A program made the translations under genes and the position numbers. A DNA stretch of 64,000 nt from Collinsella sp. An7 (lineage in GTDB: Bacteria; Actinomycetota; Coriobacteriia; Coriobacteriales; Coriobacteriaceae). This document shows, one piece after another, positions 1,085-53,269 of this stretch (positions within the stretch are counted from its first letter, which is position 1; each line of letters opens with the position of its first letter). Location: the NCBI RefSeq assembly GCF_002159335.1, contig NZ_NFHP01000003.1:124001-188000 (forward strand). The letters are read 5' to 3'. Below the pieces are notes generated by a model, which worked only from the letters and a program-made list of their open reading frames with translations, did no database searches and was not told the origin of the DNA.

Positions 1085-1170
1085 GGCGTGGGGCACGGTT
1101 GTTCTTTCCTCGCTGGTCCTCGGGCTTCGCCCTGCGGAATCGCTCGGAAAGAACAACCGTGCCCCACGCC
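1085..1170. repeat. Long hairpin A: 25-bp perfect arms around a 36-nt loop
   Basis: Arms 1085-1109 and 1146-1170 are perfect reverse complements over 25 bp. The 36-nt loop (1110-1145) is identical, in reverse orientation, to the loop of hairpin B at 1531-1566. The loop itself contains a small GGGC-ttc-GCCC stem. It begins 36 bp after the ispG stop. It could act as a terminator, although no T-run follows, or it could be a dispersed structured repeat. Confidence 0.9.
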
Positions 1171-1303
1171 TGCGTTTGCAATGCTGGTCTGGTCCGACCG
1201 GCCCATGGGGGAAAGTCAATATCGCATGGGTGACGTTGTTGATGCGTTGACGGATTCCCTTGTGGCCACTAGGGCCAATACACCTTTGCCGTTCGCCCAG
1301 CTT

Positions 1304-1346
1304 TTGTGCGGAATGAACGTATATTTTGCGCACTAGGTGAGTGAAC
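1304..1346 (+). repeat. 43-nt three-block intergenic motif, copy 1
   Basis: Three blocks, TTGTGCGGAATG, TTTTGCGCA and GTGAGTGAAC, are separated by 8 and 4 bases. The same blocks at exactly the same spacing occur at 62345-62387, and 32 of 43 positions agree without gaps. The spacers differ while the blocks are kept, as expected for a protein-binding or structured element. The function is unknown. Confidence 0.6.
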
Positions 1347-1506
1347 GACATAACTAAGGGTCGGGGTGCGTCTGCAATGTCTCCCTTCCGGCCAACCTCA
1401 TCGTCTCAATCTTTTGTCCCTTAATCTTTCTTCACCATGCGTCGCGACCGGGCTACTGCCATGTATAACTCTGCAGATTGACCTAGGTTTGGGCACGGTG
1501 CACGAT

Positions 1507-1590
1507 CCCGGGGCGGGCGAGCTGTATTCTGAGCGATTCCGCAGGGCGAAGCCCGAGGACCAGCGAAGAATTCAGCCCGCCCGCCCCGGG
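1507..1590. repeat. Long hairpin B: 24-bp arms around the same 36-nt loop, inverted
   Basis: Arms 1507-1530 and 1567-1590 pair over 24 bp with two mismatches. Their sequence is unrelated to the arms of hairpin A. The loop 1531-1566 is the exact 36-nt reverse complement of the hairpin A loop. It lies 70 bp before the proS start, so it would be in the proS leader if transcription starts upstream of it. Confidence 0.9.
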
Positions 1591-5011: not shown

Positions 5012-7045
5012 ATGATCCTGAACGTCGAGAAGGTTGAGAAGAGTTTTGGTGCACGCGTGCTGTTCTCGGGCGCGTCGTTCCAGGTAAACGCTGGCGACCG
5101 CTTTGCGCTGGTCGGCCCCAACGGTGCGGGTAAGACTACGCTGCTCAAGATCATCATGGGTATCGATACGCCCGATGCGGGAACCATCACCTTTGCCAAG
5201 GGCGTTAACGTGGGTTACCTCGAGCAGGAGACCAAGCTCGCCTCTGACATGTCGGTGATCGATGAGGTCGTTGCCTCCGCGCACGAGATCCGCGCGCTGG
5301 GCGAGCGTGCCGAGGAGCTGCAGCTCCAGATCGCCGAGGCGGGGGAGCGCGGCGAGGACCTCGATCGCCTGCTCGCTGAGTACGGACAGGTCCAGGACCG
5401 CTTTGAGCGCTTGGGCGGCTACGAGCTCGAGAGCAACGCCCGGCAGATTCTCGCGGGCCTGGGATTCCCCGTGAGCGAGTTTGACAAGCCGTGCCGCGAG
5501 TTCTCGGGCGGCTGGCAGATGCGCATCGCGCTCGCCAAGCTCTTTCTGCGTCATCCTGACGTGCTCCTCTTGGATGAGCCCACCAACCACCTCGACCTCG
5601 AGAGCGTGCAGTGGCTCCGCGGCTTTATCGCCACCTATGAGGGTGCTGTGCTCATCGTCAGCCACGACCGTGCCTTTATGGACGCCTGTGTGGACCACGT
5701 CGCCGCCATTGAGAACCGCCGCATCACCACCTACACGGGCAACTACAGCTCCTACCTCAAGCAGCGCGAGGACAACCTCGAGCAGATGCGCGCTAAGCGC
5801 GCCGCGCAGGAGCGCGAGATCGCCCACATGCAGGTCTTTGTTGATAAGTTTCGCTACAAGCCCACCAAGGCCGCACAGGCCCAGGAGCGCATGCGCCGCA
5901 TCGAGCAGATTAAGAGCGAGCTCGTGATCTTGCCGGAGGGTCACAAGCACGTGGACTTCAAGTTCCCCGATCCGCCGCGTTCGGGGGACATGGTGGTCAA
6001 GCTTGAGGACGTGGCTAAGTCATATGGCGATCACCACATCTACGACGGCATCAACCTTACGCTCTATCGTGGCGACCATGTGGCGCTCGTTGGTCCCAAT
6101 GGCGCGGGCAAGTCGACTCTCATGAAGATGCTCGCCGGCATCGAGGCGCCCTCAGCCGGTACGCGTGAGCTTGGTGTGAACGTGGGCGTGGCGTATTATG
6201 CGCAGCACCAGCTGGAGGGCCTCAACGAGTCCAATACGGTTCTGCAGGAGATCGACTCGGTGGCCCCCACGTGGACGGTCCCGCAGCAGCGGAGCCTGCT
6301 CGGCGCCTTCCTCTTCTCGGGTGAGGACGTCGACAAGCGCGTGGGCGTGCTCTCAGGCGGCGAGAAGGCGCGTCTGGCGCTCGCCAAGATGCTCGTTGCC
6401 CCTGAGGCGCTCCTCTGCCTTGACGAGCCCACCAACCACCTCGATATCGACTCGGTGGATATGCTCGAGAACGCTCTCAGGAATTTCCCCGGCACGATCG
6501 TCCTCATCAGCCATGACGAGCATCTCGTGCGCGCCGTGGCAAATCGCGTGGTCGATATCCGTGACGGTAAGATGACGGTGATCGACGGCGACTACGACTA
6601 CTATCTCTACAAGCGCGAGGACCTTGCGGCCCGTGCGGCGGGGGAGTCCGCGTCTGCACCCGCGCCCGCTTCGCCCAAGGCCGACGAGGGGCATCGCGTA
6701 CCGCGCACGCATCGCAGTGCTCAGGAGGCCCTGAGCGCGCCCGCCGGCAAGAAGACCCGCGAGCAGAAGCGCGCCGAGGCGGAGGCCCGAGCCGCCCTCA
6801 ACCGAAAGCTTAAGGGGCGCCGCGACCGGCTCGCCAAGATCGAGCGCCAGCTTGAGGGGGACCGTGCGCGCTACGAGGAGCTCATGGAGCTCATGGCCTC
6901 GGATGAGCTCTACGCCGACCAGGAGCGCTTCGCTGCAGCCCTTGGGGAGTACAACGAGCTCAAGAAGACGATCGGCGCGCTCGAGGACGAGTGGCTCGAG
7001 CTCTCTACCGAGATCGAGGAGGAGGTTGCTCGTGAACGGGCGTAA
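5012..7045 (+). CDS. ABC-F family ATPase (ribosome-associated, Uup/YdiF-like)
   Basis: This soluble protein has two ABC cassettes and no membrane part, as in ABC-F translation factors that act at the ribosomal E site. Walker A motifs lie near residues 36-43 (GPNGAGKT) and 361-368. Signature motifs are FSGGWQMRIAL near 164 and LSGGEKARLAL near 447. Both Walker B motifs read DEPTNHLD, the ABC-F hallmark. The linker between cassettes is rich in charged helices. Residues from about 580 to 677 form a coiled coil resembling the Uup C-terminal domain. ATG 5012 is chosen because AGGAG precedes it by 8 bases. The exact paralogue type (EttA, Uup or YdiF-like) is not settled. Confidence 0.93.
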   Translation: MILNVEKVEKSFGARVLFSGASFQVNAGDRFALVGPNGAGKTTLLKIIMGIDTPDAGTITFAKGVNVGYLEQETKLASDMSVIDEVVASAHEIRALGERAEELQLQIAEAGERGEDLDRLLAEYGQVQDRFERLGGYELESNARQILAGLGFPVSEFDKPCREFSGGWQMRIALAKLFLRHPDVLLLDEPTNHLDLESVQWLRGFIATYEGAVLIVSHDRAFMDACVDHVAAIENRRITTYTGNYSSYLKQREDNLEQMRAKRAAQEREIAHMQVFVDKFRYKPTKAAQAQERMRRIEQIKSELVILPEGHKHVDFKFPDPPRSGDMVVKLEDVAKSYGDHHIYDGINLTLYRGDHVALVGPNGAGKSTLMKMLAGIEAPSAGTRELGVNVGVAYYAQHQLEGLNESNTVLQEIDSVAPTWTVPQQRSLLGAFLFSGEDVDKRVGVLSGGEKARLALAKMLVAPEALLCLDEPTNHLDIDSVDMLENALRNFPGTIVLISHDEHLVRAVANRVVDIRDGKMTVIDGDYDYYLYKREDLAARAAGESASAPAPASPKADEGHRVPRTHRSAQEALSAPAGKKTREQKRAEAEARAALNRKLKGRRDRLAKIERQLEGDRARYEELMELMASDELYADQERFAAALGEYNELKKTIGALEDEWLELSTEIEEEVARERA

Positions 7046-8043: not shown

Positions 8044-8157
8044 CGGCGCGCCGGAGGACCCCGTCTCCCGCGCGGGCTCATGCGGGTCGGGATTCACCGT
8101 GCCGGTGAATCCCTCCCGAAATCGCCCGCACGGGAGACGGGCTCCTCTGGCGCGCCG
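8044..8157. repeat. Nested long hairpin between the protease gene and scpA
   Basis: Outer arms 8044-8076 and 8125-8157 pair over 33 bp with three mismatches. Inside lies a second perfect 11-bp stem, 8089-8099 with 8103-8113, around a 3-nt loop. It starts 22 bases after the protease stop. It is far longer than a normal intrinsic terminator and has no T-run. The loop does not match the loop shared by the two hairpins near 1.1-1.6 kb. Confidence 0.88.
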
Positions 8158-52498: not shown

Positions 52499-53269
52499 AT
52501 GGGAAGGATTCCACGGGTTCGTTCGACATCGGGCGTCTACCATATCACCTTACGTGGCAACGGCAAGCAGATACTCTTTGAGCGCGATGAGGATCGACGC
52601 ATGTTTTGCACCATGCTTTCGGACTGCGTAGAGCGCTATCAACTCGATGTACTTGCATGGTGCCTTATGGATAACCATGTTCACCTGCTCGTTCTCGATC
52701 GTCAGCATGAACTGAGCGCCGCCATGCACCAACTCTGCAGCCGCTATGCTCGCATCTACAACCAGTGCACGGGGCATGTAGGGTCGGTCTTTCAGGGACG
52801 CTTTGCCAGCGAACCGGTGGAGTGCAACGCGCATTTGCTCGAGGCGGTGCGTTACATTCATGCCAATCCGGAGAAAGCGGGAATCGCGCAGACTGACGCT
52901 TGGGAATGGAGCAGCTACGCCGAGTACGCTGGCACGCGAAAGGCGAGCATCACAAAGCCCGATCTTGTGCTTAACATGGTAGGCGGCCGCGACGGTTTTT
53001 TACGCATGAGCGCTGAATCGTCGTCGCAGCCACGCTGTGAAGAACAGCACGGACGCATACCAGATGCCGAGGCACTTCAACGCGCCCGTGATGTGCTTGA
53101 TGGCTTTGACCCCGGACTCATAAAGACGCTTGAGCGAAAACTACGCAAACAGGCACTCTCCGGGTTGCGCAGAGAAGGACTGTCCGTACGACAGATTGCA
53201 CGACTCACCGGAGTGGGGGTGCGCACCATCTACCGGGTGACGGCCTTCCGGCGCGGGGTGCAGCCTTGA
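52499..53269 (+). CDS. REP-associated tyrosine (Y1/HUH) transposase
   Basis: The 256-residue protein belongs to the IS200-related transposases that move or shape REP-type palindromes. The metal-binding HUH motif is MDNHVHLL with H60 and H62. Candidate nucleophile tyrosines are Y83 and Y87 (CSRYARIYN), followed by VFQGRF and AVRYIHANPEKAG, both family signatures. The C-terminus adds a helix-turn-helix (SGLRREGLSVRQIARLTGVG) found in chromosomal members of the family. GGGGAGG precedes ATG 52499. The intact frame suggests it is active or recently active. Confidence 0.9.
   Translation: MGRIPRVRSTSGVYHITLRGNGKQILFERDEDRRMFCTMLSDCVERYQLDVLAWCLMDNHVHLLVLDRQHELSAAMHQLCSRYARIYNQCTGHVGSVFQGRFASEPVECNAHLLEAVRYIHANPEKAGIAQTDAWEWSSYAEYAGTRKASITKPDLVLNMVGGRDGFLRMSAESSSQPRCEEQHGRIPDAEALQRARDVLDGFDPGLIKTLERKLRKQALSGLRREGLSVRQIARLTGVGVRTIYRVTAFRRGVQP

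Follow-up and report, generated by a model that had tools for sequence, protein, structure and literature searches.

The window analysed here is a stretch of 64,000 nucleotides from the genome of Collinsella sp. An7, in which two long hairpins, A and B, lie between the stop codon of ispG (at 1049) and the start of proS (at 1661). Hairpin A (1085..1170, + strand) is found 35 nt 3' of the ispG stop codon with its tip directed away from ispG; its two 25-bp arms (1085-1109/1146-1170) form 25 perfect pairs and carry a conserved tip at 1110..1145 (+) that reads TCGCTGGTCCTC-GGGC-TTC-GCCC-TGCGGAATCGCTC. Hairpin B (1507..1590, - strand) is found 70 nt 5' of the proS start with its tip directed away from proS, and its 24-bp arms (1507-1530/1567-1590) are paired at 22 of 24 positions, the two mismatches being G-T and A-A on the tip-carrying strand. 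The tip of hairpin B (1531..1566, -) has the same sequence as that of hairpin A, such that the two are identical across 36 nt in opposite orientation, and the shared block grows to 44 nt at 95% identity once a few flanking bases are counted; the arms of the two hairpins are unrelated in sequence. Both hairpins fold strongly (-70.1 kcal/mol for A and -68.8 kcal/mol for B, with z-scores of -9.5 and -7.3 and no shuffled sequence equally good), and they score 96 and 95 bits, respectively, with covariance model R1. When up to three mismatches are tolerated, chance predicts 0.01 occurrences in the window for a 20-nt segment of the tip, and two were observed. Coordinates and folding thus bear out an earlier note on this DNA, which described a pair of long hairpins whose arms are unrelated and whose 36-nt loops are identical in opposite orientation. 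The 'loop', however, is not unpaired: it contains GC/GC and UCC/GGA pairings and an inner GGGC/GCCC stem.

The exact tip is present in the source genome (G000) in two copies, both at the ispG-proS locus. A search of the same genome with the arm of hairpin A, the arm that was tested, returned no other copy, and the possibility that arms are copied from elsewhere in the genome, in the style of silencing RNAs, was therefore rejected. The spacer between the inward-facing tips (1171..1506) was scanned and contains no canonical terminator and no convincing gene. By eye, a TATCAT motif common to relatives can be seen in the interval from hairpin B to the start of proS; on this basis the proS promoter would probably lie downstream of hairpin B. 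The identity of the two tips may reflect conversion between inverted copies 420 bp apart; such conversion would not be general, as the inner stems differ within hairpin pairs at some other loci.

Comparison across tip classes reveals a common denominator composed of GTCCTCG, a variable inner stem of about 2 to 13 pairs, and CTGCGGAA. The tip has an internal loop, and some classes add a variable mid stem. Among relatives the inner stem covaries, being found as GGGC/GCCC, GCGC/GCGC or GGCC/GGCC, and in an alignment of 14 sequences changes have occurred on both sides at 24 of 31 pairs, with a covariation score of 0.572 against 0.203 when shuffled and 0.11-0.22 when the partner was slid. The tip has been shown to be conserved across phyla, whilst the outer and inner stems vary in sequence and stay strictly Watson-Crick paired. 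This agrees with one of the two proposals of the earlier note, namely a structured repeat family in which the arms diverge under a pairing constraint and the tip is kept. A third long hairpin in the window (8044..8157, +; 25 pairs), situated 22 nt after the stop codon of a co-directional gene, has a tip of another type (GCTCATGCG ... CGAAATCGC), the motif of which recurs in one other hairpin of the source genome (L066/L112); it is tentatively placed in the family, and further tip classes may exist. Long hairpins with family-like tips and a deviating core (for example CAAACAGCTTCGG...CCTGCAGAACTG) were also observed at L339:224-344 (G024), L352:2195-2287 (G027) and L338:1238-1352 (G013), in genomes with few or zero matches to the RNA models; the covariance models probably capture only part of the family.

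The tip recurs in Coriobacteriaceae, Eggerthellaceae, rumen Clostridiales, Spirochaetes and Luteibacter, typically in 5 to 20 copies per genome and nearly always inside long pairing arms that differ between copies. With up to three mismatches it is present in 16 of 100 relatives, which disposes of the idea of a local accident. Using covariance models, members were detected in 60 of 67 genomes from the bacterial family to which Collinsella and Enorma belong and in 21 of the 99 genera sampled across the order; about 15 diverged members are found in the source genome, 28 in G012 and 20 in G003. The flanks of the matches are long arms that pair with each other and differ by locus, apart from a few broken copies. 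Both outcomes that the earlier note named as refuting, a lack of further copies and matches devoid of palindromic flanks, are thereby ruled out. A cross-phylum scan with the pattern GTCCTCGN{4,34}CTGCGGAATCGCTC, taking one genome per species, yielded at least 120 stretches, and among the matches listed were Collinsella, Enorma, Eggerthellaceae, many rumen Clostridiales, Spirochaetes and Luteibacter. These matches have unique pairing arms whose base composition tracks that of the host. A few have no hairpin (e.g. Gemmatimonadetes contig L150) and are probably due to chance; ten pattern-bearing genomes contained 2 to 20 matches each, and 0 to 2 when the pattern was reversed. Neither the exact tip nor the general pattern was found in viral contigs, and no near relatives of the tip were found in plasmids and phages. 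In one genome (G258), two tandem hairpin pairs 78 bp apart (L332:2289-2388 and 5073-5172) each follow a long reading frame, as might result from joint duplication of a gene and its hairpins.

Stem-loop families of bacteria have been surveyed systematically before (PMC1590033, PMC2267715). An Rfam search with the window region and 13 further loci gave sub-threshold matches only, mostly to microRNA precursors that fit the long stems, and no known Rfam family was matched above its gathering score. No description of the hairpin family was found in the open-access literature, in line with the earlier note, whose author knew of no family with this form. Hairpins with a fixed tip and variable stems are apparently an undescribed and widespread class of bacterial element.

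The position of the hairpins relative to genes was assessed using home-made gene calls, with copies de-replicated by arm sequence. Of 77 Coriobacterial hairpins, 70 face outwards from the gene end closest to them (p = 3.5e-14), and in Clostridia outward orientation is weaker, at 28 of 38 (p = 0.005); both p-values are overstated, as the counts include orthologous slots with diverged arms. Among the outward Coriobacterial hairpins, 58 lie after stop codons (median distance about 18 nt) and 12 lie upstream of starts, at 24-120 nt; hairpin A is of the former kind and hairpin B of the latter. The sense-direction position just 3' of a stop codon accounts for 58 of 85 Coriobacterial hairpins, and inverted hairpin pairs that bound an intergenic region recur at other loci. 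A T tract, which would give the look of a canonical terminator, follows only 2 of 82 Coriobacterial hairpins, although T-rich versions occur in some Clostridia. A canonical terminator is found further downstream of 17 of 78 hairpins compared with 91 of 314 other gene ends, and as these frequencies are about equal, replacement of canonical terminators by the hairpins is unsupported. Amongst 1002 flanking proteins there was no recurring transposase, recombinase, reverse transcriptase or integrase, the largest recurring clusters being orthologous housekeeping genes; no partner protein was found either.

Several of the gene-end slots are occupied in more than one genus. The leuA-leuC slot is occupied, with different arms, in genera g1, g2 and g3, and the ispG-proS slot in g1 and g5, represented by the source genome and Enorma massiliensis. 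In Enorma massiliensis, 2.7 kb of foreign-looking DNA separates the two hairpins; this low-GC stretch (L129:3320-5930) has, by eye, the look of a mobile-element remnant with an interrupted gene resembling a radical-SAM rRNA methylase. Sister species of the source organism, in which the start of the ProS protein is 96% identical, have about 55 bp from ispG to proS, with no hairpin and no palindrome, the relatives compared at this slot being G002, G003 and G007. Because slots are common to genera and yet the pair is missing from the sister species, the slots are taken to be old and their occupancy to come and go. A second informative slot follows the gene for a cation ATPase in genomes of the C. 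aerofaciens-like group, where the adjacent coding DNA is 93-100% identical to the query and at least four hairpin forms are found. Genomes G028 and G036 have outer arms in common (GGGGTTTC...GAAACCCC) and entirely different insides, a class 1 tip in one and a class 4 tip in the other, with 97% identity in the neighbouring ATPase DNA. G031 and G035 differ from these two by matched blocks on both arms, and the hairpin of G057 combines a G031-like left half with a G028-like right half and folds less well. In distant relatives without the element at this slot (G030, G010, G055, G015), a short ordinary terminator with an unrelated stem, or no terminator, is found.

The nature of the arm mismatches bears on how pairing is upheld. 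Arms contain 42 G-T and 34 A-C mismatches, and the inner stems contain 717 Watson-Crick pairs with 2 G-T and 4 A-C. In a like-for-like count of ordinary terminators from the same DNA, G-T outnumbers A-C by 17 to 2 (Fisher p = 0.007). Some of the loci were collected with an RNA model in which G-U counts as a pair, a bias towards G-U that makes the parity of G-T and A-C conservative. With no preference for wobble pairs, pairing in these hairpins is kept by a process that is blind to strand. The candidate with the best documentation is template switching in the course of replication, which has been described to create and maintain perfect hairpins (PMC8794818); selection on folded single-stranded DNA is an alternative. 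The RNA hairpins attributed to template switching resemble those described here in that their stems are perfect and change blockwise in both arms; they differ in being the product of a mutational process in rRNA genes, not a dispersed family with a conserved tip (PMC8794818). Taken together, the data point to stems held complementary at the level of DNA, for example by template switching, beneath a tip under direction-dependent selection.

The explanation that we put forward, with a confidence just short of an even chance, is that hairpins A and B belong to a dispersed family of structured elements that marks the ends of transcription units, with stems rewritten by template switching and a tip read in the transcript. 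The stems would be rewritten and re-matched in the DNA, most simply through arm-to-arm template switching in replication, such that arms could drift fast and stay complementary and an identical tip could come to occupy unrelated arms. The sequence and direction of the tip would be kept because the outgoing transcript carries it to a reader: a protein or RNase that may recognise the tip at the 3' end of an mRNA or, at gene starts, of an upstream antisense RNA. The element could then act as a 3'-end boundary for processing, protection or RNA polymerase arrest. The direction of the hairpins relative to genes argues that the tip is read directionally, and the simplest reader would be the outgoing transcript; recognition at transcript ends is our leading guess. 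The parity of G-T and A-C argues against selection on an RNA stem, and the case for reading in RNA thus draws on tip direction only. The full statement for all phyla, of a gene-end class with a directional tip, template-switched stems, a boundary role at both ends (3' in sense and 5' in antisense) and a conserved putative factor, is held more tentatively, as possible but doubtful.

The strongest rival is REP-like mobile DNA, in which a transposase or single-strand nuclease would recognise the folded tip, inverted pairs would be mobile in the manner of REPINs, and location at gene ends would reflect an insertion preference. It would account for the strict, strand-blind Watson-Crick pairing, for the recurrence of inverted pairs in several copies per genome, and for the presence of the whole ispG-proS pair in the source genome when it is missing from the sister species. 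It also accommodates the best indication that members of the hairpin family have moved in the past, a unit of about 450 bp in Luteibacter jiangsuensis that contains two inward-facing hairpins and is 90% identical at two unrelated loci (L325:2040-2486 and L326:2351-2794). Indeed REP, BIME and REPIN sequences are likewise short extragenic palindromes, several per genome and often in inverted pairs at gene ends, with DNA-level folding and conserved irregularities. Nevertheless, none of 30 Y1_Tnp (PF01797) loci had a family hairpin within about 1.5 kb, five element-bearing genomes gave no Y1_Tnp match (some of these assemblies are possibly incomplete), and the flanking proteins lack a recurring transposase. 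Slots kept across genera and low copy numbers are unlike an active repeat, as are arms that are not conserved between copies. The hairpins differ from REP/RAYT systems further in their copy-specific stems, cross-phylum tip and outward orientation, and in that the GTAG/CGTC foot tag is not conserved: Coriobacterial hairpins have a foot consensus of 5' CC..ACC and 3' TGCGTT, and those of Clostridia have no consensus foot. No RAYT/Y1 gene lies near the hairpins, and none was found in several hosts, in contrast to REPs mobilised by RAYT (TnpA-REP). On balance we consider a REP-like origin unlikely, at around half the plausibility of a transcript-read boundary element.

Other palindromes in these genomes deserve mention in their own right. 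Some long palindromes in which the motif TTGGGGACG occurs stand apart from the family, and one of these lies close to a Y1 transposase; a set of long perfect palindromes around TTGGGGACGGG / CCCGTCCCCAA, likewise separate, was seen in Collinsella relatives at L107:2805-2882, L343:1309-1373, L350:2199-2285 and L396:2261-2383. As L396 adjoins a Y1 transposase gene, the palindrome set that includes it may be a local REP-like family. The sole Y1 transposase-like (PF01797) match in the source genome lies within the window at 52535-52864 (+), in a 274-aa open frame with no family hairpin nearby.

A purely RNA-based element, in which selection in the mRNA would act on both stem and tip of a 3'-UTR hairpin (as a stabiliser, a processing site or an unusual terminator), is somewhat less probable again. 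It would account for the location 8-30 nt past the stop codon, for tip direction and for the strong covariation, and it fits the ordinary terminators that relatives lacking the element have at the ATPase slot. As in intrinsic (Rho-independent) terminators, a strong sense-direction hairpin is found just 3' of the stop codon, and ordinary terminators fill one slot in relatives. The resemblance ends with the 20-30 bp stems, the large, structured and conserved tip, the T tract that is absent but for the two cases noted above, and stem mismatches that show no wobble bias where true terminators here favour G-T by 17 to 2. Moreover, the reverse copies 5' of starts probably lie outside the mRNA.

In the other proposal of the earlier note, a 36-bp core goes into the middle of palindromes that already exist, terminators for instance. 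Such insertion would explain an identical tip within unrelated arms and has a precedent in REPs reported inside target palindromes in other bacteria, GTAG-15 dimers sitting in Anabaena variabilis palindromes (PMC3733652). In both cases a conserved element occupies a palindrome centre, but the palindromes targeted there are a consensus (PMC3733652), whereas the arms of the present family are unique to each copy. Comparison of orthologous loci without the core, which covered the ATPase and ispG-proS slots in relatives that are perhaps too distant to decide the matter, revealed no empty palindrome at either. Covariation and turnover affect the arms as well, the tip has a variable inner stem, and tip classes swap while outer arms stay unchanged; insertion into palindromes is accordingly very improbable. 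Least probable of all, and barely credible, are attachment sites for a site-specific recombinase, either folded sites like integron attC or the borders of an invertible region: integrons use folded single-strand recombination sites, and attC is also an imperfect hairpin with conserved extrahelical positions, matching the unpaired conserved bases and inverted pairs seen here, but attC keeps its hairpin base (the R boxes) and varies its tip, the reverse of this family, inversion between paired tips would part matching arms and break both hairpins, and no integrase recurs among the neighbours.

The division of labour in this class of element is unusual: the sequence of the tip is kept, and that of the stem is free yet continues to match itself. 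The stems behave as if template switching, inferred so far mainly from the histories of rRNA genes, rewrites natural hairpins in bulk. The family is also a warning that an RNA function does not follow from strong covariation by itself: covariation is high here and the wobble signature of RNA selection is absent. The strong outward direction of the hairpins at gene ends, for its part, predicts a factor that recognises the tip.
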